From assembly GCA_019459525.1 (NCBI GenBank), contig JAIBEY010000038.1:1-64000 (forward strand): 64,000 nucleotides of DNA. The letters run 5' to 3'. The position numbers and the translations under genes are program-made. The notes under the pieces are model-generated. The model did not search any database, was not told where the DNA came from, and worked only from the letters and a program-made list of their open reading frames with translations. Below, piece after piece: positions 49,644 to 59,557 of the stretch. The stretch comes from Prolixibacteraceae bacterium (lineage in GTDB: Bacteria; Bacteroidota; Bacteroidia; Bacteroidales; Prolixibacteraceae). Numbering within the stretch: the stretch's first letter is position 1; every line of letters starts with the position of its first letter.

Positions 49644-50417
49644 ATGAGTAAATCGTGTATTCTATTCTGCAATTGTGGGGCTGGTGTAATTACATCAGAT
49701 AAATCGGAACAAATCAAATCGACCTTGAAAAATCTGGATGCAGACGTTTATCAGTTGGATGATTTCTGCGGAATTGTGCTGAACCGGAAAGATTTTATCC
49801 GGGCAATCGATCAGAAATACGATCAGAAGATAATGGTTGCCTGTTATCCTCGGGCAATTAAAAATTTACTGGCGCAGAACGATCTGGAACTTTCAGGTTT
49901 GGAGGTTTTGAATTTCAGGGAACTGTCGGTTGCTGATATCGAATCGAAATTGCTGAATGATTTCTCGTTTGCTGAAGGAAAAGCTTCCGAAACTCGTATG
50001 GAGAGTGGACTTGATGTTCCGGCCTGGTATCCGGTAATCGACCAGCCGTTGTGCATCGATTGCGGAAAATGCTTCAAATTTTGCTTGTTCGGCGTTTATA
50101 CGTTTGGTGGCAAACAGTTAAAAGTGGTGAATCCGCTGGCTTGTAAAAACAATTGCCCGGCTTGCGGGCGAAATTGTCCGACTTCGGCTATTATTTTTCC
50201 ACGACTGAAAGAGAACAGCGTATTGGCAGGTGCTGAGCCAGGGACAGCATCCCAATATAAAGGAATGGCAAATAATCCGGATATGATTTCAACGCTCAAT
50301 CAGCGCTCGGCGTTGCGAAGGAATATTTTCAGAACCGGATTGATAGAACAGGCTGAAGCTGAACGACAGAGAGCATTAGACGAATTGAAGAATACGTCCA
50401 AAGGATTGAAGGAGTAA
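49644..50417 (+). CDS. Two-cluster 4Fe-4S ferredoxin-like protein with cysteine-rich N-terminal domain
   Basis: 257 residues. The N-terminal part (SKSCILFCNCGAGVITSD, then MVACYPRAI) resembles the opening of heterodisulfide-reductase HdrA-like proteins, with Cys9, Cys11 and Cys67. The C-terminal ferredoxin domain has CIDCGKCFKFC (Cys137, 140, 143, 147) and CKNNCPACGRNCP (Cys167, 171, 174, 178), enough for two [4Fe-4S] clusters. It is cytosolic, and electron transfer is the likely role. The start at 49644 (MSKSCILF) is chosen over an upstream codon at 49551 because conserved sequence begins there. A radical SAM gene follows after 45 bp, so this could be its electron donor (inference). Confidence 0.78.
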   Translation: MSKSCILFCNCGAGVITSDKSEQIKSTLKNLDADVYQLDDFCGIVLNRKDFIRAIDQKYDQKIMVACYPRAIKNLLAQNDLELSGLEVLNFRELSVADIESKLLNDFSFAEGKASETRMESGLDVPAWYPVIDQPLCIDCGKCFKFCLFGVYTFGGKQLKVVNPLACKNNCPACGRNCPTSAIIFPRLKENSVLAGAEPGTASQYKGMANNPDMISTLNQRSALRRNIFRTGLIEQAEAERQRALDELKNTSKGLKE

Positions 50418-50438
50418 GGTCAGGACATGTCCTGACCT
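50417..50438. promoter_or_regulatory. 22-bp perfect palindrome
   Basis: Half-site AGGTCAGGACA is followed directly by its reverse complement. It begins on the last base of the ferredoxin-like gene's stop codon and ends 24 nt before the radical SAM start. It could be a protein-binding operator, a short cruciform or a member of a dispersed palindrome family. No T-tract follows, so termination is unlikely. Confidence 0.6.
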
Positions 50439-50462
50439 ACCAAATAACACACACAATTGCAA

Positions 50463-51644
50463 ATGGGATTACTAAAAAATATACTGATCCGTACCGACAA
50501 ACGATGTTTGTACAAATTTGTGGTGAACATGGGCATTAAAGGCTCCATGTCGTTTGCCCGGTTTCAGAAACGGCAGAAGAACGGCGAATTTTTTCCGGCC
50601 TTTAATTTTATTTCAGTTACCGACGACTGTAACCTGAATTGCCAGGGTTGCTGGGTAATGGGAAAGGAAAAAAACAGCCGTTTAAAACCGGAACAGCTCA
50701 ACCGGATCATTGACGAAACCAAAAAAGCCGGTTCCTATTTCTTCGGAATTTTGGGTGGCGAACCGCTGTTGTACAAACCGCTTCCGGAGATATTCAGAAA
50801 ACATTCCGACTGCTATTTTCAGTTGTTTACCAACGGAACGCTCCTTACTCCTGAAGTGGCCGAAACGTTGCGGCAGTGTGCCAATGTAACTCCGTTGATT
50901 AGTTTTGAAGGCGATGAAGATGTGGCCGATGTGCGCCGTGGAGGAAAGAATGTGTTCCAATCGGCCAATCAGGGAATCGACAACTGCATTAAAGCCGGAC
51001 TGGTAACAGGTGTGGCCATCAGTGTTTGCAAATCGAACCTCGAAATGGCTATGTCGCCCGAATTTATTAATTCACTGATCGACAAAGGAGTTGCCTATTT
51101 GTGGTACTACATTTATCGTCCAGTTGGTCATCAGCCGAATTTCCAATTGGCTTTAAGCCCGGATGAAATTCGTCAGCTTCGTCAGCACATGGTTGATGCC
51201 CGAATGAAGTACAGCATTGCCATTATCGACACGTATTGGGATGTGGATGGAATTGCCATGTGCCCGGCTGCTGAAGGCCTGAGTCATCACATCAATGCTT
51301 CAGGATATGTTGAACCATGCCCGATCATTCAGTTTGCTGCCGATCATGTGGATGAAAAACCGCTGGATCGTTTGTATGCCGAATCGACTTTTTTAAGTGA
51401 TTTCAGAAGCAGTATTCAACAAAAAACCAAGGGTTGTGTTGTGATGGAAGATCCGCAATGGCTGGCTGAATTCGTAAAAAAACACGATGCGCAAAATACT
51501 TCAGGAAGAAAAAGCGAATTGGAACGTTTGCAAATGGCTCCCGAAACAGTTAGTCACGGTTCGTGTGAAGTGATTCCGGAAAAAAGCCGGATTTACCGTT
51601 TTGCCAAGAAACGTGCATTTTTCGGGCTTGGAGCCTATGGATAA
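50463..51644 (+). CDS. Radical SAM enzyme with cysteine-rich C-terminal region
   Basis: 393 residues. The radical SAM cluster motif is VTDDCNLNCQGCWVMG (Cys56, Cys60, Cys63). GILGGEPLLYKPLPEIF gives the SAM-binding GGE motif, followed by LFTNGTLL. The C-terminal part has more cysteines (MCPAAEG, then EPCPIIQFA and KGCVVMED), like a SPASM/auxiliary-cluster region. The layout recalls radical SAM enzymes such as HpnH, which adds adenosine to hopanoids, but the sequence alone does not prove that reaction. Given the prenyl synthase and cyclase genes downstream, modification of a terpenoid is the best working hypothesis. ATG at 50463 is preferred to the TTG two codons upstream. Confidence 0.82.
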   Translation: MGLLKNILIRTDKRCLYKFVVNMGIKGSMSFARFQKRQKNGEFFPAFNFISVTDDCNLNCQGCWVMGKEKNSRLKPEQLNRIIDETKKAGSYFFGILGGEPLLYKPLPEIFRKHSDCYFQLFTNGTLLTPEVAETLRQCANVTPLISFEGDEDVADVRRGGKNVFQSANQGIDNCIKAGLVTGVAISVCKSNLEMAMSPEFINSLIDKGVAYLWYYIYRPVGHQPNFQLALSPDEIRQLRQHMVDARMKYSIAIIDTYWDVDGIAMCPAAEGLSHHINASGYVEPCPIIQFAADHVDEKPLDRLYAESTFLSDFRSSIQQKTKGCVVMEDPQWLAEFVKKHDAQNTSGRKSELERLQMAPETVSHGSCEVIPEKSRIYRFAKKRAFFGLGAYG

Positions 51645-51647
51645 AAA

Positions 51648-51729
51648 GTTCCGAGTGAACTAGAGTTCGGAGTGGCTAAAGTTGTCGCTGAAGTACTTTA
51701 GGCACTCCGAATTTTAAGCACTTCGAACT
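51648..51729. repeat. Long nested inverted repeat inside the putative operon
   Basis: An inner 16-bp arm (51666-51681) pairs with 51696-51711 with one mismatch. An outer arm GTTCCGAGTG (51648-51657) pairs imperfectly with CACTTCGAAC (51719-51728). It fills the 96-bp gap before the DUF116 fusion gene and could be a processing or attenuation site. Confidence 0.6.
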
Positions 51730-51740
51730 CAAAATTAGAA

Positions 51741-53312
51741 ATGAAGGTTAAAGAAAATATATTGGTTGTTCCGGAGAAGGCATTGACGCGAAACCGGTTG
51801 AGGAAAGCGGCCCGCGAGCTGGTTGCCGAGCGGGTAATTGTTCCGCCCGGGAACTTCGTGCTTATTCAGCAGATGGCCGATGAGGTAATCGCACAAACTG
51901 AAACTGACGAAAGTTTCCGCGAGTTTGCCATGGTGGTCTGCGGAAACGAAATCTGGCGATCGGTTGTAGCTGCGACTCCGTGCAATCGACGGCTCTTACT
52001 TTTACCGCAATGCCTGAAAAACAACAGTTCGTGTCATGCTGAAGTTGATGAATTGGGATTGATCTGTGCCGGATGCCAAAGTTGCCAGATTGATTCGATT
52101 TTGCAAAAAGCCGAAGGGCTAGGTTATGCCACGCTGGTGGCCGAAGGAACTACCGTTGCCATTAGTCTGGTTCAGGAAGGATCGGTTGATGCTGTGATTG
52201 GCGTGAGTTGTATGTCGGTACTTCAGAAATCGTTCGAACCGGTTTCGAGGGCGGCAGTGCCGGTAATTGGTATTCCGTTGCTGTTCGAAGGTTGTGCAGA
52301 AACCGATGTGGATAACCGCTGGCTCGACGATGAACTGACCAATTTTAAGGAAAATACAGATTTGAAGCCTTTGTCCGTTTCGGCACTGAAAGTAAAAGTG
52401 AACGGATTTTTCACCAAAGACCAGTTGGCTGCGATGATTGGGGCTGACCGAGACGAGACCACTCAACTGTCCATACAGTCGATGCTTACCGGAGGGCAAC
52501 GGATTCGCCCGTTGCTTACGGCTTTGGCTTATTCAGCCTATGCTCCGGAAGTTTCAGCAGATTTACTCGCAGCACTTTCTGTGGTGGTGGAATGCTTCCA
52601 CAAAGCATCGCTTATTCACGACGACATAGAAGATAACGACGATTTTCGCTACGATACCGAAACCATTCACAAACAAAATGGCATTCCGGTGGCCATCAAC
52701 ACCGGCGATTTTCTGCTCGGAAAAGGATACGAATTACTGGGTAAACTGCCACTCGATTCATCGGCAATGGCTGCCTGTTATCAATTGGTTGCGAATGGGC
52801 ACGTGGCTTTGTCGCTCGGTCAGGGTGCCGATTTGCTGGCCAGTGCGAACCATCGTATTCTTTCTCTCGATCAGCAGCTTGAAATTTTCGAACGCAAAAC
52901 CGGTTCAGCTATTCGGGTAGCATTGCTGCTTGGCGCGGTTGCTGCCAGTGCTTCGGAAAGCGATTTGGAAATACTCAAGACTTTTTCGGGTTACTTCGGA
53001 ATGGCTTACCAGATAAAAGACGATCTGGACGAATTCCGTGAATCGAATGAACATACCCAAGTGGCAGATTATCCGTTGATGCTTTCCCTGCTTGCTGAAA
53101 ATGCTCCTGAATTGTCAACTGAAGATATCCGGATTGCCTATGCCAAAAACGATAAGCAGCAAGTTTCGCAATGGATTGAATCGAACCAAATCGTCGGTAA
53201 AGCCGAAGAAATTCTTCAGGAATACACCTCGAAATCTTACCATGAACTCGATCAGTTGAGAAACCTGAAAATGAAATTGAGTTTATATACTGTGCTGGGT
53301 AAGATCTTCTGA
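51741..53312 (+). CDS. DUF116 domain fused to polyprenyl diphosphate synthase
   Basis: 523 residues. Residues about 5-200 match DUF116, with the cysteine set QCLKNNSSCH (Cys91, 98) and CAGCQSC (Cys109, 112, 115), plausible for metal binding. From about 215 an isoprenyl diphosphate synthase follows. GGQRIRP (251-257) binds diphosphate, the first aspartate-rich motif is LIHDDIEDND (294-298), ERKTGS is at 384-389, and the second motif is QIKDDLDE (427-431) with Glu replacing the last Asp. Small residues Ala289 and Ser290 before the first motif suggest a product of C20 or longer. It would make a linear allylic diphosphate. This domain combination is unusual. The next gene begins 8 bp downstream. 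Confidence 0.85.
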   Translation: MKVKENILVVPEKALTRNRLRKAARELVAERVIVPPGNFVLIQQMADEVIAQTETDESFREFAMVVCGNEIWRSVVAATPCNRRLLLLPQCLKNNSSCHAEVDELGLICAGCQSCQIDSILQKAEGLGYATLVAEGTTVAISLVQEGSVDAVIGVSCMSVLQKSFEPVSRAAVPVIGIPLLFEGCAETDVDNRWLDDELTNFKENTDLKPLSVSALKVKVNGFFTKDQLAAMIGADRDETTQLSIQSMLTGGQRIRPLLTALAYSAYAPEVSADLLAALSVVVECFHKASLIHDDIEDNDDFRYDTETIHKQNGIPVAINTGDFLLGKGYELLGKLPLDSSAMAACYQLVANGHVALSLGQGADLLASANHRILSLDQQLEIFERKTGSAIRVALLLGAVAASASESDLEILKTFSGYFGMAYQIKDDLDEFRESNEHTQVADYPLMLSLLAENAPELSTEDIRIAYAKNDKQQVSQWIESNQIVGKAEEILQEYTSKSYHELDQLRNLKMKLSLYTVLGKIF

Positions 53313-53320
53313 TTAAAAAC

Positions 53321-54196
53321 ATGAACCCAACTTCGAAAAATATTCCTTTTTACAGGCAAATGATTGCTCTTCTCGGGAATGCATTGGACTTGCTCGACGA
53401 GCAGGGGCGGGGAGAAGTGCTGCAATTTATACTCAGCCAGCAAAATGCCGATGGTGGATTTCGGGATCGTGGCGGAAGATCGGATTTATATTATTCGCTG
53501 TTTGGTGGGCTGATGATTGGGGCATGGGGCATGGGGCCCGGAGCGACGCTCCCTGAGCTTGTCGAAGGGAAAATCCTGAAACTAAAACAGTTTATCGCCC
53601 GACAGTCGAAATCTGAAGTCCCCGGGTTCATTGAAAAATGTTGTTTGGTATTGCTTCAGAAGGAATTGAAAACCGGACGGATTTTGCAGATCAGATCCAT
53701 CTTTTCGTTGGGTAGATCATTCTGGAGAGAGCGCCAATCGATCAATTTATCGTACCGGAGTTTTGTGTTGTTCCTGACCTTGGACGCCGTTTTCCCTTTC
53801 TCCAGATTGCTGAAATTTGGTGCAGGAAAGATGTTGAAACAAACAGTAGTTGATCAGCATTCGCCTTGTTCTGAAGTTGCCGCCAAGGTCTTCCTGCAAA
53901 GAATGATGAATCAGGATGGATCCAAAGAAACGGAATTGCTGATGTCATTTGCCTGTGAATCGGGCGGATTTAAAGCCTTTGCTCACCTTGATCAGGCCGA
54001 CATGCTTTCAACAGCCGTAGCCTTGTTTGCGCTCGAATTTGCCGGAAGTGATTTGCGATTGCTAAAACCTGCCTGCCTTAATTTTATCGAATCGAATTTT
54101 GCTCACGGCGCTTTTCTATCGGGTGATGGCGATGCAACTACCGACGTGGAATATACTTTTTATGGTTTGCTGGCGCTGGGAGTGTTGGCGAAATGA
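53321..54196 (+). CDS. Prenyltransferase/squalene-oxidase-repeat (alpha-barrel) protein
   Basis: 291 residues. An N-terminal repeat reads ILSQQNADGGFRDRGGRSD and LYYSLFGGLMIG (38-66). A C-terminal repeat (KAFAHLDQADMLSTAVALFAL, then DVEYTFYGLLALG) completes an alpha-alpha barrel similar to terpene-cyclase and protein-prenyltransferase beta subunits. It lacks a DxDD motif, so an independent cyclisation activity is doubtful, and a partner or binding role with the cyclase is possible. At 53541-53569 the DNA carries a REP-like palindrome that encodes residues GATLPELVEG in frame, so part of the protein appears to be an insertion. It starts 8 bp after the prenyl synthase. Confidence 0.72.
   Translation: MNPTSKNIPFYRQMIALLGNALDLLDEQGRGEVLQFILSQQNADGGFRDRGGRSDLYYSLFGGLMIGAWGMGPGATLPELVEGKILKLKQFIARQSKSEVPGFIEKCCLVLLQKELKTGRILQIRSIFSLGRSFWRERQSINLSYRSFVLFLTLDAVFPFSRLLKFGAGKMLKQTVVDQHSPCSEVAAKVFLQRMMNQDGSKETELLMSFACESGGFKAFAHLDQADMLSTAVALFALEFAGSDLRLLKPACLNFIESNFAHGAFLSGDGDATTDVEYTFYGLLALGVLAK
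53541..53569. repeat. REP-like palindromic element inside a coding sequence
   Basis: GAGCGACGCTC (53541-53551) is a small palindrome immediately followed by CCCTGAGCTTGTCGAAGGG (53551-53569), whose CCCT and AGGG ends pair. The word CCTTCGACAAGCTCAGG on the opposite strand is a widely scattered bacterial repeat. In-frame copies typically encode PELVEG, as here. Confidence 0.65.
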
Positions 54197-54281
54197 ACAC
54201 TTCATCTGTTTCTCTTTAATGAACGGACCTATCCGGAATTTCCCATCTTTCGTATCTTGCATCCTCAAACCGTAATCCAAC

Positions 54282-56063
54282 ATGAATATAAGTAATCAAT
54301 CCCAATTCTCAGAACTTACCACTCTCCTCTTCCAAAAACGCAACCCCGCCGGTTATTGGGAAGGGCGGCTTTCGTCGAGCGCATTGGGCGTGGCGGTGGC
54401 TGTAACGGCGTTGCATTTTTACGATGCCAAAGGGAATGTTTCCGAAATTTCATCTGGATTAAATTGGCTGGCGACAAACATTAATTCAGACGGTGGTTTT
54501 GGCGATTCGCCCACAAGTCAAAGCAATGTGAGCACCAGTTTGCTTTGTTATGCAGCGGTAAAAGTATGTGGACAGAAAGATGATTTGCTCCTGAAAATCG
54601 GGGATTATCTTCGGTCGCAAAACATTGATGTCAATTCAGAACAACTCATTCCGGCAATTCTCGATTTTTATAAAACCGACCGCACTTTTTCGGTTCCGAT
54701 TTTGACGATGTGCGCTTTGTGCAATGTTCCCGGAAAAGAAGCGTTTGATTCCATACCTCAATTGCCATTTGAACTTTCGTTGTTGCCGCGTTCATTTTAC
54801 AGCGCGCTGAACCTGAGTGTGGTCAGTTATGCGATCCCGGCGCTCATCGCGGTTGGAATCGCCATCTTCAGGCATAAACAACGAAAAAATCCGCTGATGC
54901 GGATGGTGCGGGAAGCTTCGTTGAAAAAATCGCTTGCGTTGCTCCGGAAAATTCAGCCCGAAAGTGGCGGTTATCTGGAAGCCATTCCACTCACCGCTTT
55001 TGTGTGTTTGTGTCTGATTGAATCGGGCTATCGCAATTTGGATGTGGTGCGCGATGGAATAAATTTTCTGAAACGTACCCAACGTGAAGATGGAAGCTGG
55101 CCGATTGACATTGACCTTTCGACCTGGGTGACCACGCTCGCGGTGAAATCGATAAAGGACCATCCGGAAGTTTTGACTTCGGAAGATAAACTAAAGCTTA
55201 CCAAGCATTTATTAACGATTCAGAACAAGCAAATTCATCCTTTTAATGGAACTGAACCGGGTGGTTGGGGCTGGACATCGCATGCCGGTTCGGTTCCCGA
55301 TGGCGACGACACGCCAGGAACGATTCTGGCCTTGCTGTCCTTGAACCAGGGAAATCCGGAAACCATACGAATGGCAGTTTTAGCAGGTTGTAACTGGCTT
55401 AGTCAGCTTCAAAATAACGATGGAGGATTCCCTACGTTTTCGCGTGGCTGGGGCAAGTTGCCCTTTGATCAGAGTTGTTCGGATTTAACCGGACATGCAA
55501 TTTTGGCTTTGGCTAAAACAGCTCACATATTTGGCGATTCGCTGGGCCGAAAGCAGTATTCAGCAATCAAAAAATCGTTTGTAAAAGCAATCAGTTATCT
55601 GGGAAGGCATCAGGACAAAACCGGATTTTGGCTGCCGCTTTGGTTTGGAAATCAGCATACGGCCGATCATACGAATCCGGTTTACGGAACGGCCCGGGTA
55701 ACGGCATATCTTAATGAGACTTTAAAGACACGACTGGGGGCAGAATACGAAGTAATCCTGAAACTGATGATCGAACGAGGTTGTCGTTATTTGCTCGCTG
55801 TTCAGAATCCTGATGGAAGCTGGGGCGGTGCAAAGGATATACCCGGAAGCATCGAGGAAACGGCGCTGGCTGTAACGGCTTTGTCTTCTAACGGTTTCCT
55901 GGAGGAATGTACCTTGGGGTTAAAATGGCTTGCCGAAAAAACAAAATCCGACGGGCTGGTTGCTGAGCCCATCGGATTGTATTTTGCATCGCTATGGTAC
56001 GACGAAGAATTGTACCCGCTAACGGCTTATCTGGAATGCCTTTCTTCGATTAACGATTGCTGA
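54282..56063 (+). CDS. Class II terpene cyclase of the squalene-hopene cyclase family
   Basis: 593 residues of alternating alpha-barrel repeats. QW-type motifs are QREDGSW (267-273), QNNDGGF (377-383), HQDKTGFW (443-450) and QNPDGSW (508-514). The catalytic acid motif GSVPDGDDTPGTILAL gives DxDD at 340-343 with Asp342 as the expected proton donor, preceded by GGWGW as in squalene-hopene cyclases. SYAIPALIAVGIAIF (182-196) matches the membrane-dipping segment, and the C-terminus (GLYFASLWYDEELYPLTAYL) is the family ending. It protonates an isoprenoid double bond to form polycyclic products. No squalene synthase is near, so the substrate may come from the DUF116-fused synthase. It is the last gene of the cluster, with 85 bp before it. 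Confidence 0.87.
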   Translation: MNISNQSQFSELTTLLFQKRNPAGYWEGRLSSSALGVAVAVTALHFYDAKGNVSEISSGLNWLATNINSDGGFGDSPTSQSNVSTSLLCYAAVKVCGQKDDLLLKIGDYLRSQNIDVNSEQLIPAILDFYKTDRTFSVPILTMCALCNVPGKEAFDSIPQLPFELSLLPRSFYSALNLSVVSYAIPALIAVGIAIFRHKQRKNPLMRMVREASLKKSLALLRKIQPESGGYLEAIPLTAFVCLCLIESGYRNLDVVRDGINFLKRTQREDGSWPIDIDLSTWVTTLAVKSIKDHPEVLTSEDKLKLTKHLLTIQNKQIHPFNGTEPGGWGWTSHAGSVPDGDDTPGTILALLSLNQGNPETIRMAVLAGCNWLSQLQNNDGGFPTFSRGWGKLPFDQSCSDLTGHAILALAKTAHIFGDSLGRKQYSAIKKSFVKAISYLGRHQDKTGFWLPLWFGNQHTADHTNPVYGTARVTAYLNETLKTRLGAEYEVILKLMIERGCRYLLAVQNPDGSWGGAKDIPGSIEETALAVTALSSNGFLEECTLGLKWLAEKTKSDGLVAEPIGLYFASLWYDEELYPLTAYLECLSSINDC

Positions 56064-56074
56064 TTGGCGAAGCA

Positions 56075-56500
56075 CTATTTTAACACAACAGCCGGACTCA
56101 CTTTTATTTCCATCAGATAACCTTTGCAAATGCCTTTAACCGTAACTGAACTTCCGGTTTCCAGGGCCTCAATAGTTTCCTGATTGGTTGCCGCCCAGTT
56201 GCTGTCGAGTTGGCAGCTAATTCCCTGCATCTCGTCTTCCAGAATCAAAAGGTCGGTTCCGTTTGAAAGCTTATTTTTAACCACCAGTTTGCCACTGATT
56301 TCGAGAATTTTTTCGCTGTATTTGGTCGTTGCAGCATTCTCGTCCAGTTCAAACTCACCGATTAAGCCAGTTGCTTCAACCTGAAATGCAGCTTTTGATT
56401 TACTGATGTCGGCATGTGGTTTGAAAAACATCTTCAGGCCAATGCCAGCCCCGATCAATATTACCACCAAAACCAGTACGATTGCATATTTGATTTTCAT
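56075..56500 (-). CDS. OB-fold (tRNA_anti-like) membrane-anchored protein
   Basis: 141 residues with one N-terminal membrane span (IKYAIVLVLVVILIGAGIGL, 3-22). A small beta-barrel domain follows: YSEKILEISGKLVVKNKLSNG, LILEDEMQGISCQLDSNW, SSVTVKGICKGYLMEIKV. This is the OB-fold seen in the tRNA_anti-like family (PF12869), which has no known nucleic-acid role in the periplasm. It is the last gene of the minus-strand YceI/DUF5777/cytochrome operon, 36 bp after the YceI gene. Its stop is 11 bp from that of the convergent terpene cyclase. Confidence 0.78.
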   Translation of the reverse strand: MKIKYAIVLVLVVILIGAGIGLKMFFKPHADISKSKAAFQVEATGLIGEFELDENAATTKYSEKILEISGKLVVKNKLSNGTDLLILEDEMQGISCQLDSNWAATNQETIEALETGSSVTVKGICKGYLMEIKVSPAVVLK

Positions 56501-56536
56501 GTTACCGATTTTTAAAACCTGAAACCTGGAACTTAT

Positions 56537-57088
56537 TTATTGTCCGAATGGCAGATAATTGGCTTTAACAGTCACTTCCATTTCTTTACCGATTTTGTCG
56601 CGTACCAAGGATGGAATGGCTATTCCGTAGTCTTCAGGAACGACCTTGAATTTGGTTGTTCCGGCGAGTTTGCCATTTTCCAAGCCCAGTTTGGCAGGGA
56701 TGGTTATGGTTTTATCCACTCCATGAATGGATAATGTTCCGGTCACTTTAATGTCTGCAAGTGGTGCTGAAAGCATGGTTTTGCTATATGCTTCAATCTT
56801 TCCGGTGAATTTGGCTTTCGGAAATTTGGTGCTTTCCATATAGTTTTCGTTGAAATGCTCTTCCATCAATGCACGTTTAAAGTGAAAGGTGGTCATCAAT
56901 GCCTGAAAAGCAATTTCGCCGGTTTCGGCATTCAGGATAGTTACCGCCTCATTGCTCTCGCCGAGAATATCTTCCATTGGTGTGGAAGAAAAAAACGATA
57001 TGTAGGCATTTTTAGCTATAAATTTTCCTTGTCCGAATACACCGATCGAAGCAGTAATAAAAATCAGGATAAATAATTTTTTAAGCAT
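56537..57088 (-). CDS. YceI-family periplasmic protein
   Basis: 183 residues with a signal peptide (MLKKLFILIFITASIGVFGQ) and the lipocalin-like YceI fold: FIAKNAYISFFSSTPMEDI, TTFHFKRALMEEHFNENYME, FPKAKFTGKI, VTGTLSIHGVDKTITIPA, FKVVPEDYGIAIPSL. Structures of relatives bind polyisoprenoid lipids such as octaprenylphenol, and some YceI proteins act in redox or quinone-related stress. This member is co-operonic with haem lipoproteins, which favours a role in envelope electron transfer. It is 6 bp downstream of the DUF5777 gene. Confidence 0.92.
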   Translation of the reverse strand: MLKKLFILIFITASIGVFGQGKFIAKNAYISFFSSTPMEDILGESNEAVTILNAETGEIAFQALMTTFHFKRALMEEHFNENYMESTKFPKAKFTGKIEAYSKTMLSAPLADIKVTGTLSIHGVDKTITIPAKLGLENGKLAGTTKFKVVPEDYGIAIPSLVRDKIGKEMEVTVKANYLPFGQ

Positions 57089-57094
57089 GGGATA

Positions 57095-57991
57095 CTATTT
57101 TTTATTGAATGCAAAAACCCGCGAAATGTTGAATCCCAAATGAATGTCGCCATCCATCCAGCTTCCGGTGGTTTGGGGTATGAATGAGCCTTCGCGCATT
57201 CCCTGAGAGTTGGTAACCATGATTTGGAAAACATGTCCTCCGGTTTCGATATCGACACCAAAGGATAAAGCATTGTAGGTCTTTGGGTCCAAAGATTCAG
57301 AATTTGGGTTGTACGTGTAATAGTATTCGGCATTGAGCGACAGCCGTTTGCTTAATTTATACCTTGCACCCATTCCCAGCGCATAAATATCGTTTTGGTC
57401 AATCTCTGTTTTTACCAGGTTGCGGTGGATGTACGTGGGTGTTAACTGAATGGAAAGATTTTCGTTAAACTTTCGGGCAATCAGGAGCTGATTGACATAG
57501 GCCAGGCGCGATGAAAAATAGTTGGATGTTCCGGCAGGCCGATCCGGAAATTTTAATGTATTCATCTCAATAGAAGTAAAATACGATAGATGTACCGGCA
57601 TAAATTTTTCGCCTGAAGACTGTCGCAATAAACGTACTTTGGCAAATCCATCATAGGTCTTATTTAAACTTCCACGACCGACGCCAACCATTAACCAATC
57701 TTTCAAACCGTATTCAAGGCTAAAATGTATGACCGACTGATCAAGTCCCCACAAACCATAAGCGCCGCTGTTGAGTGTCCCAAAACGGTGCGAAATCCGG
57801 AAGTCGAGCTGTTTTTCTTTCATTTGCTCGATGGAATGCCCGTTGATAATGCGGCTGGCCTTAAATGTAGCATTGGCATAATTTACCGATGGTTTTGTTT
57901 CAGCATTGAGCAACGCATCTAAATCCTGGCTAAACACATTTCCGGCGATAAGTAATAATAATCCGATAAACAAGGAATGTTTGTTTTTCAT
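57095..57991 (-). CDS. DUF5777 outer-membrane beta-barrel protein
   Basis: 298 residues with a signal peptide (MKNKHSLFIGLLLLIAGNVFSQ). Aromatic beta strands alternate with short turns through the whole length (DFRISHRFGTLNSGAYGLWG, YGLKDWLMVGVGRG, SLNAEYYYTYNP, FGVDIETGGHVFQIMVTNS), the look of a small outer-membrane porin. The FRISHRFG and GHVFQ words match DUF5777, a Bacteroidota family commonly beside YceI and c-type cytochromes. It may serve as the barrel through which electrons or substrate pass to the haem lipoproteins (inference). Confidence 0.83.
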   Translation of the reverse strand: MKNKHSLFIGLLLLIAGNVFSQDLDALLNAETKPSVNYANATFKASRIINGHSIEQMKEKQLDFRISHRFGTLNSGAYGLWGLDQSVIHFSLEYGLKDWLMVGVGRGSLNKTYDGFAKVRLLRQSSGEKFMPVHLSYFTSIEMNTLKFPDRPAGTSNYFSSRLAYVNQLLIARKFNENLSIQLTPTYIHRNLVKTEIDQNDIYALGMGARYKLSKRLSLNAEYYYTYNPNSESLDPKTYNALSFGVDIETGGHVFQIMVTNSQGMREGSFIPQTTGSWMDGDIHLGFNISRVFAFNKK

Positions 57992-58002
57992 TTAGCTGAA
58001 AT

Positions 58003-58383
58003 TTAATTGTTTAAAGTTCCGTTGTCAATCCACTTTTGCAATTGATTGATTTCGCAGTCGGTGAGTTTTCCGCCTCCCTTAGGCATTGCCTGATAGCCGT
58101 TGGAATGATTCACAGATCCCATTAATTTCCCGTTTTTAGCTTGTGTTTGAACATCGGCGTAATTCTCCAGTTTAATTCCTGCTCCTGAACTGTTGGCGCT
58201 AGAATTGGAATGGCATGAAAAACAAGAAGCTTGTAAAATGGGTTTTACGGATGCTGCAAAGGTCACATTCGTAAGGTCGCAGGTTGTTGAAACTTCAGCA
58301 TAGAGTTTCTCCTCATTATCGTAGTAACATCCGGAAAAGGAAAGTAACAAAAGGAATGTTGCCGTTTTCAGAATATGTTTCAT
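58003..58383 (-). CDS. Monohaem c-type cytochrome lipoprotein
   Basis: 126 residues. The lipobox SFSGC gives lipid-modified Cys19, fixing the start at 58383 (MKHILKTATF). The haem site is CFSCH (Cys54, Cys57, His58), in the sequence VKPILQASCFSCHSN. A Met at GYQAMPKGGGKLTDCEI is a candidate distal ligand. It is a small periplasmic or outer-membrane electron carrier, matured by the CcsB-CcsA protein. The next gene downstream (DUF5777) begins 11 bp after its stop. Confidence 0.85.
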   Translation of the reverse strand: MKHILKTATFLLLLSFSGCYYDNEEKLYAEVSTTCDLTNVTFAASVKPILQASCFSCHSNSSANSSGAGIKLENYADVQTQAKNGKLMGSVNHSNGYQAMPKGGGKLTDCEINQLQKWIDNGTLNN

Positions 58384-58488
58384 CTGTTTATAATTTGTTT
58401 TTTTAATGCCAGATGGAACTCCCAAGAATCATCCTCCTGTGTGAGAAAGGATTTCTTCTGGTCGTTTCATAAAGCCTGATTTTAAATT

Positions 58489-58887
58489 TTAGTTGCTGGC
58501 ACAATTGGTTTGTTTGGCTCCTTGTTCAATCCATAACCGAATTATTGTTCGTTTATCCAGAGGAAGGGGATTGTCGGGTGGCATAATTTCATCGGTACTG
58601 GTTATCGCTTCGTAAGCTTTGCTCTTCGACGCGTTCCCCGGAGTGATGGCTTTCATGATACTGGCATAGTCAGTAAAAACATAATCCCCCTCTGCTGTTT
58701 TGGCATCATGGCACCCGCTGGTTCCGCAACTGTTCATGAAGATGGGTAAGACTTGCTCTGTGAAGCAGATTTGTGTCATATCTTCGGCTGGGATACCTTC
58801 GTGCTGACAGGAGTTAGTCAGAAATACAACGGAGCCAAGAGACAGAATGATTGCGGCAGAAAATAACCCGAATCTTGTTTTTTTCAT
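58489..58887 (-). CDS. c-type cytochrome-like lipoprotein with CX4CH motif
   Basis: 132 residues with a lipoprotein signal ending NSC (Cys27). The haem-like site reads MNSCGTSGCHDAKTAEG (Cys54, Cys59, His60). That is CX4CH rather than CXXCH, a spacing known from some multihaem cytochromes c but uncommon for a single-haem protein. A Met in STDEIMPPDNPLPLDKR could be the sixth ligand. If haem is bound, the CcsB-CcsA system must accept the longer loop. It lies 105 bp upstream of the monohaem gene in the same operon. Confidence 0.8.
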   Translation of the reverse strand: MKKTRFGLFSAAIILSLGSVVFLTNSCQHEGIPAEDMTQICFTEQVLPIFMNSCGTSGCHDAKTAEGDYVFTDYASIMKAITPGNASKSKAYEAITSTDEIMPPDNPLPLDKRTIIRLWIEQGAKQTNCASN

Positions 58888-58939
58888 GGTTACTGAAGTT
58901 GATTTTTATATAAATGTAAGCATTTAATGCGTTGATTGT

Positions 58940-59557
58940 TTATTTTTCAAGCAATCCGTCATCAACCCATTTTTTCAGGAGTGCAATATTTTCTGCCGAT
59001 AATTTCGATCCGCCTGCGGGCATAAATCCAGTTGCCGTAGTTTCGCGTTGTACCCTGTCGAGTATCCCACTAATCTTACTTTTAGTCGTTTGATAATCGT
59101 CCCATTTGCTTGGATGTGTGCCACCCGTCAGATGGCACGGGGTGCACGAGCTGGCAAGAAGGGTTTTAATATTTGCGGTGTAGGTAACCTTTGCCGAGGA
59201 AGCAGCCGGATTTACTGTAACTGTAACCGATACAGGACTTCCTGAAGTTCCATTGGCCGTTGGGGTTATGGAATAGGTGGCTGTGCCTGAAGTCGTTCCG
59301 GTGATAGTTAAGGTTTGGGCAATACTTGATCCGCTACCTGAAGTTGCCCCCGTAACTCCGGCTTGAACTACAGTCCATGAAAAAGTGGTGGCAGCCACTG
59401 AACTGGTTAATGAAATAGAGGTGGCAGCGCCCGAGGTGATCGTTTGGGAGGTTGGTGTTGCGGTTGCTACTGGTTTAGTAGCTTCTTCATCTTTGGTACA
59501 TGAATTCAGAACTAAAAACGAAGAAAAAAGCATGAGGATTAAAATTCGTGTTTTCAT
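58940..59557 (-). CDS. Lipoprotein with Ig/PKD-like domain and C-terminal haem c domain
   Basis: 205 residues. The lipobox LNSC gives Cys20. Residues about 28-120 form a Ser/Thr-rich PKD-like or immunoglobulin-like domain (SLTSSVAATTFSWTVVQAGVTG, TLTITGTTSGTATYSITP, VSVTVTVNP). The C-terminal 80 residues hold the haem site SSCTPCHLTGG (Cys138, Cys141, His142) and a distal Met candidate at GFMPAGGSKLSAENI. It is first in the six-gene minus-strand operon and probably sits at the cell surface with the Ig-like domain as a spacer. The low-complexity Thr/Ser stretch suggests rapid evolution. Confidence 0.85.
   Translation of the reverse strand: MKTRILILMLFSSFLVLNSCTKDEEATKPVATATPTSQTITSGAATSISLTSSVAATTFSWTVVQAGVTGATSGSGSSIAQTLTITGTTSGTATYSITPTANGTSGSPVSVTVTVNPAASSAKVTYTANIKTLLASSCTPCHLTGGTHPSKWDDYQTTKSKISGILDRVQRETTATGFMPAGGSKLSAENIALLKKWVDDGLLEK

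Follow-up and report, generated by a model that had tools for sequence, protein, structure and literature searches.

A stretch of 64,000 nucleotides from a Prolixibacteraceae bacterium (assembly GCA_019459525.1, contig JAIBEY010000038.1, positions 1 to 64,000; genome G000 and contig C89 of our set), hereafter called the window, carries five co-directional open reading frames (ORFs), A to E (49644-56063, + strand), which probably constitute a dedicated operon for a predicted cyclic isoprenoid lipid made without squalene. This reading is favored because the five genes are linked across phyla, genes C and E co-occur, their motifs are intact, and the SQS_PSY family was not found in 12 of the 31 carriers. 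Known enzyme families appear here in a combination that searches of the open-licence literature did not bring up; none of the titles and abstracts listed described the gene set, which is weak evidence of absence.

Gene A (49644-50417) encodes a two-cluster 4Fe-4S ferredoxin-like protein with an N-terminal cysteine-bearing domain, the cluster Cys codons lying at about 50052-50177. Gene B (50463-51644) encodes a radical SAM protein with its CxxxCxxC motif at about 50628-50651 and four further conserved Cys. Gene C (51741-53312) is a fusion, in a single frame, of a DUF116 domain (about 51891-52328) and a trans-polyprenyl diphosphate synthase domain (about 52473-53057), with Asp-rich motifs at about 52620-52634 and 53019-53033. 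Gene D (53321-54196) encodes a small alpha/alpha-toroid protein that distantly resembles the beta subunit of Rab geranylgeranyltransferase (RabGGTase), and gene E (54282-56063) encodes a putative class II terpene cyclase of the squalene-hopene cyclase (SHC) superfamily with a DGDD motif at 55299-55310. All of them are on the + strand, and the intergenic gaps in the ORF list were 45 (A/B), 96 (B/C), 8 (C/D), and 85 bp (D/E). The original prediction, made from the sequence alone, had described the same five genes, gaps, and protein types; the ORF coordinates agreed with it, and the domain scores and conserved residues given below bore out each of the five types, that of D marginally.

Conservation of the five-gene order

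E was found in 29 of the 61 genomes of the window's kin, its own genome included. Among named records it turned up at 26 loci. According to profiles made from the retrieved loci, 43 distinct loci had a match to at least one of the five genes. All five stood consecutively on one strand at 28 further distinct loci, 26 of them in the order A-B-C-D-E and two, both from Planctomycetaceae, in the order B-A-C-D-E. Complete named loci came from Prolixibacteraceae, other Bacteroidota, one Spirochaete, two Riflebacteria, and two Planctomycetaceae, with the reservation that the taxon labels of loci from metagenome bins can be wrong. Because the neighborhood recurred at 28 other distinct loci in several phyla, it exceeds what would be expected by chance. 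Scattered and unlinked homologues in relatives, one of the two findings that would have refuted the original prediction, were thus not what the search for a shared gene order returned.

The incomplete loci (15 of 43) included four truncated where a contig stops (L065, L068, L084, and L090), one with A-B-C only (L186), three with C alone (L184, L185, and L187), and one, L188, counted here, whose DUF116 gene only resembles C. At L066, L071, L072, and L074, D and E were separated by about 0.9-3.2 kb instead of being adjacent. In two Kiritimatiellae bins (L185, 10629-12071; L187, 6460-7908), a gene for a PQQ-type beta-propeller lay directly behind C, and A, B, D, and E were absent from both loci.

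The co-occurrence of C with E was borne out. A fusion-sized DUF116 frame (507-580 amino acids, aa) was present in all 15 E-bearing genomes examined. Among 28 relatives without E, five had a DUF116 match, and one of these frames was fusion-sized (G396, a genome 76% complete, in which the contig ends inside D, before E); the other four frames measured 387, 272, 167, and 112 aa. A search of the phylum with protein C matched 178 of 395 genomes at E ≤1e-20, and among the matches listed, the window's own genome aside, only the generic synthase part was covered. One long match, at L007, was rejected as a DUF116 fusion since it spans two separate genes, the synthase and an upstream gene that we take to resemble isopentenyl diphosphate isomerase.

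Gene E and the hopanoid cyclases

Both cyclase domains of E exceeded their Pfam cut-offs, SQHop_cyclase_C with 105.8 bits (cut-off 26.1) and SQHop_cyclase_N with 75.3 bits (cut-off 26.2). Residue conservation was read from 21-25 sequences per protein, the window copy included, and a residue was called kept when it occurred in at least 95% of the rows. The PDGDDTPG motif of E, with Asp340, Asp342, and Asp343, was invariant in 15 of 15 aligned sequences and kept among 25. His405 was kept too; aligned by eye, it faces the His of the DVTAH stretch in A. acidocaldarius SHC, and the two true SHCs compared have Arg at its position. Both domains of the predicted model (pLDDT 89) matched SHC, the drimenyl diphosphate synthase SsDMS, and human OSC, with TM scores of 0.76-0.77 for SHC by query and 0.80-0.82 for drimenyl diphosphate synthase by target; MstE was also among the matches, over about half of E. 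The DxDD motif within this predicted two-domain alpha-barrel fold marks E as a class II terpene cyclase.

Judged by its family scores, E is not the hopanoid enzyme. It reached 82.7 bits on the hopene-cyclase model TIGR01507 and did not pass the cut-off of 431.1; four other E proteins scored 46.7-94.8 bits, and three true SHCs of E-bearing genomes scored 619.5-696.4 bits. E was 24% identical to one true SHC, and in the alignment with true SHCs about 45-50 SHC residues faced a gap in E, in a stretch that presumably lies near the membrane entrance of SHC. Besides E, no SHC-family match was found in the window's genome. In the 15-row alignment of E, no Lys was invariant and Arg268 was the single invariant Arg, so the substrate may be either a diphosphate or a hydrocarbon.

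Squalene supply in the carriers

The SQS_PSY family was present in 19 of the 31 E-bearing genomes and was not found in 12. Nine of these 12 contained an intact operon (G399, G400, G418, G420, G424, and the genomes of L079, L081, L082, and L086), and in the remaining three (G446, G462, and G464) E and C were apart. Completeness values, given for six of the 12 genomes, were 96-100%.

The window's genome has two SQS_PSY homologues, on contigs C54 (L001) and C57 (L002), and each is below both the HpnC and the HpnD cut-offs. The better one had HpnD as its top model (100.4 bits, cut-off 278.6), and the synthase on C57 reached only 41-43 bits on the two models. Each adjoins a gene above the CrtI-family (desaturase) cut-off, the second pair being divergent. 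The survey of flanking genes covered 30 of 33 SQS_PSY matches, three having given no locus, and found a CrtI-like gene in the short flank of 23 of 24 loci from Bacteroidota carriers (all except L096) and beside one of six loci from Planctomycetaceae and Verrucomicrobia. One of the two homologues in the window's genome may still make squalene. The second finding that would have refuted the original prediction, an ordinary hopanoid cyclase with squalene synthase genes elsewhere in this genome, was likewise not obtained: E is far below the hopene-cyclase cut-off, and both homologues, which adjoin CrtI-family genes, fall short of the HpnC and HpnD cut-offs.

These two homologues, and above all the one whose top model is HpnD, are what could be said for E as an ordinary hopanoid cyclase that receives squalene from a synthase elsewhere in the genome. 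We consider this very unlikely: both homologues have CrtI-family neighbors, 12 of the 31 carriers are without SQS_PSY, and E falls far below an SHC cut-off that true SHCs pass.

Gene C and the iron-sulfur proteins

DUF116 (PF01976) scored 109.9 bits (cut-off 25) and polyprenyl_synt 138.7 bits (cut-off 27) in the one frame of C, and seven Cys of the DUF116 part as well as both Asp motifs of the synthase part were kept among 25 sequences. The family score and the two Asp-rich motifs identify the second half of C as a predicted trans-polyprenyl diphosphate synthase. A small residue before the first Asp motif of a prenyl synthase leads to products longer than C15. Ala289 of C, five residues before this motif, replaces the Tyr of the two nearest solved bacterial enzymes shown, so the residue points to an all-trans chain longer than C15, which is a lower bound. 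The NCBIfam synthase models all scored far below their cut-offs on C and did not discriminate chain length. For the DUF116 part, the predicted structure (pLDDT 76) had no Foldseek match at E ≤0.001, the top match having a TM score of 0.30, and a profile search gave no credible solved relative. At L188 (8255-9370), a stand-alone DUF116 gene of 371 aa without a synthase domain was observed, although the operon occurs in the same genome; the DUF116 family has further functions.

Nine Fer4 models of Pfam matched A, every one below its cut-off; the eight Cys of the two clusters and one more Cys were kept among 22 sequences. The best NCBIfam matches of A were of the HdrA and HgcB types, far below cut-off. 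In A as in the DUF116 part, the Cys residues suggest iron-sulfur redox chemistry at the end of the chain.

The same residues would also fit another scheme, in which the DUF116 domain of C and the ferredoxin A reductively couple two prenyl diphosphates to squalene or a longer symmetrical polyene without squalene synthase, and E turns this into a hopanoid-like product. The SHC-like fold of E, the 12 of 31 carriers without SQS_PSY, and the lack of invariant Lys in E, with its single invariant Arg, which suits a hydrocarbon substrate, agree with such coupling. It is nevertheless unlikely, because E is far below the hopene-cyclase cut-off and lacks about 45-50 aligned SHC residues, and because three genomes (G459, G460, and G463) contain E together with a true SHC and SQS_PSY homologues, which would make E redundant there.

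B scored 63.8 bits on Radical_SAM (cut-off 29.5), and its CxxxCxxC triad and four additional Cys were kept, with Cys56, Cys60, and Cys63 invariant in 11 of 11 aligned sequences. On the HpnH model TIGR03470, B reached 41.2 bits (cut-off 225.05) and was scored higher by other radical SAM models. Among other B proteins, that of L081 reached 45.7 bits on the HpnH model and two were under the 1e-10 listing limit. The HpnH-type label that the original prediction had attached to B was therefore dropped, and B was assigned to none of the named families tested. Its nearest solved relatives were SkfB and cytosylglucuronate decarboxylase, with tetraether lipid synthase more distant.

The toroid protein D passed the Prenyltrans cut-off marginally (27.0 bits, cut-off 26.5). 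It was less conserved than A, B, C, and E, with 21-86% identity between the window copy and 13 others. In its weak resemblance to the RabGGTase beta subunit, the invariant Tyr58 of D faces one aligned His, which we take to be a zinc ligand, and the alignment leaves the other zinc-ligand positions uncovered.

Proposed pathway

In the squalene-free pathway that we favor, the synthase half of C would build an all-trans prenyl diphosphate longer than C15, and E would protonate the chain end via its DxDD motif and fold the chain into rings. Iron-sulfur redox chemistry would come from the ferredoxin A and the DUF116 half of C; in the simplest case it would reduce the allylic diphosphate end or remove it. 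D may hold or present the lipid, and B may carry out a radical modification of the chain or of the product. What A, B, D, and DUF116 do, in which order the steps run, how long the chain is, and what product results are all inferred. Of the original interpretation, the cyclization of an isoprenoid from the operon's own synthase and not from squalene was supported, and the HpnH-type radical SAM enzyme was not.

Several points weigh against this pathway. SQS_PSY homologues do occur in 19 of the 31 carriers, so squalene is a possible substrate there. L070 and L073 are otherwise four-gene loci with no recognised A, and E stands alone, apart from the other operon genes, at L087, L088, L089, and L126; the four genomes with E alone have a fusion-sized DUF116 gene elsewhere, which in G463 adjoins A and B. 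The roles given to B, D, and DUF116 are conjectural, and the DUF116 model is without a confident structural relative, in a family of no known function, for which the operon now offers a genomic setting.

Neighboring electron-transfer genes

Six genomes (G430, G453, and the genomes with L079, L081, L082, and L086) encode a NapH-like membrane protein at a distance of about 2.6-12 kb from E, in a module with PQQ-type beta-propellers and mostly a Tat-type 4Fe-4S protein; NuoEF- and NuoG-like proteins were found in at least three of the six (G430, G453, and L086). In the window's genome, NapH is on contig C95, in a run of propellers, 4Fe-4S protein, NapH, NuoEF, and NuoG. A conserved run of propeller, NHL-like, 4Fe-4S, NapH-like, and NuoEF-NuoG-like genes was observed there (L223, G000:C95:25000-44000) and at L086, L082, L079, L081, L127/L234, and L128/L233. 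The propeller-NapH-Nuo run looks like an NADH-linked electron-transfer chain. A full-length NapH-like protein was found in 19 of 21 E-bearing genomes, the exceptions being two Planctomycetaceae, and two of the 19 genes carry one in-frame stop. The co-occurrence of NapH and E gave a Fisher p of 4e-5, a value that ignores kinship. Of 28 relatives without E, however, nine have a NapH-like protein too; six of these nine were inspected and had a similar module, with the 4Fe-4S protein unrecognised in one. The module thus does not depend on E, and we treat it as an association and not as a part of the operon.

MstE, which matched about half of E in structure, cyclizes prenylated benzoates. This match, the six genomes in which the NapH module is near the operon, and the presence of a NapH-like protein in 19 of 21 carriers would accord with an E that cyclizes a prenylated aromatic or quinone-like compound, the operon then making a redox-active lipid for the NapH/beta-propeller chain. 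This seems distinctly improbable, since the genes common to at least four loci included no recognised aromatic-prenyltransferase or quinone gene, and since the module also occurs in the 9 of 28 relatives without E.

Convergent to the operon, on the - strand of the window (56075-59557), are neighbors that were conserved at 12 of the loci examined; they encode a tRNA_anti-like protein, a YceI-like protein, a DUF5777 beta-barrel, and three small cytochrome-like proteins. The YceI family is named for polyisoprenoid binding.

Implications and comparison with known systems

The favored pathway can be extended, as a conjecture of low probability, to a bacterial, squalene-independent class II route in which regular polyprenyl chains (C20 to C35) would be folded to give ring lipids for anaerobic membranes; in some lineages it would act alongside the NapH/beta-propeller chain. 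A C30 chain could give a product of the tricyclohexaprenol type, a proposed prokaryotic source of petroleum tricyclic terpanes. The tricyclic terpanes of sediments and oils have been suggested to derive from tricyclohexaprenol, a C30 isoprenoid in the membranes of prokaryotes (PMC10319793), and an algal origin has been argued for as well (PMC10464518). The tricyclohexaprenol idea would become testable through a defined set of genes in a named isolate. One such isolate, Sunxiuqinia indica (L077), carries the complete five-gene set and a single SQS_PSY homologue, which adjoins a CrtI-like gene.

The SHC/hpn hopanoid operon resembles the present one in the two-domain fold and intact DxDD motif of E and in the nearby radical SAM gene B, as the radical SAM gene HpnH stands near in hopanoid loci. 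It differs in that E and B are far below the SHC and HpnH cut-offs, the window's genome has no HpnC or HpnD over cut-off, and the prenyl synthase here sits in the operon, fused to DUF116. SsDMS and the bacterial class II diterpene cyclases are DxDD enzymes that act on prenyl diphosphates, and SsDMS is a good structural match to E, although E exceeds the SsDMS chains by about 100 residues; we know of no counterpart of the partners A-D in these systems. In the sesquarterpene (C35) pathway of Bacillus, an SHC-like cyclase acts on a chain not derived from squalene. Its DUF2600 enzyme, which we take to be tetraprenyl-beta-curcumene synthase, was found in none of the 21 operon carriers searched, unlike in the B. 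subtilis positive control, and this sets the two systems apart.

Also comparable are the fungal non-squalene triterpene synthases, which, as described in PMC9177416, combine a prenyl synthase with a cyclase and use hexaprenyl diphosphate without squalene. The abstract of this 2022 paper states that, before these exceptions, all known triterpenes came from squalene or oxidosqualene. The fungal enzymes, as presented there, are class I chimeras, whereas the operon has a separate, predicted bacterial class II cyclase and a DUF116-fused synthase; a bacterial class II route with its own prenyl synthase would therefore differ from the fungal class I exceptions.

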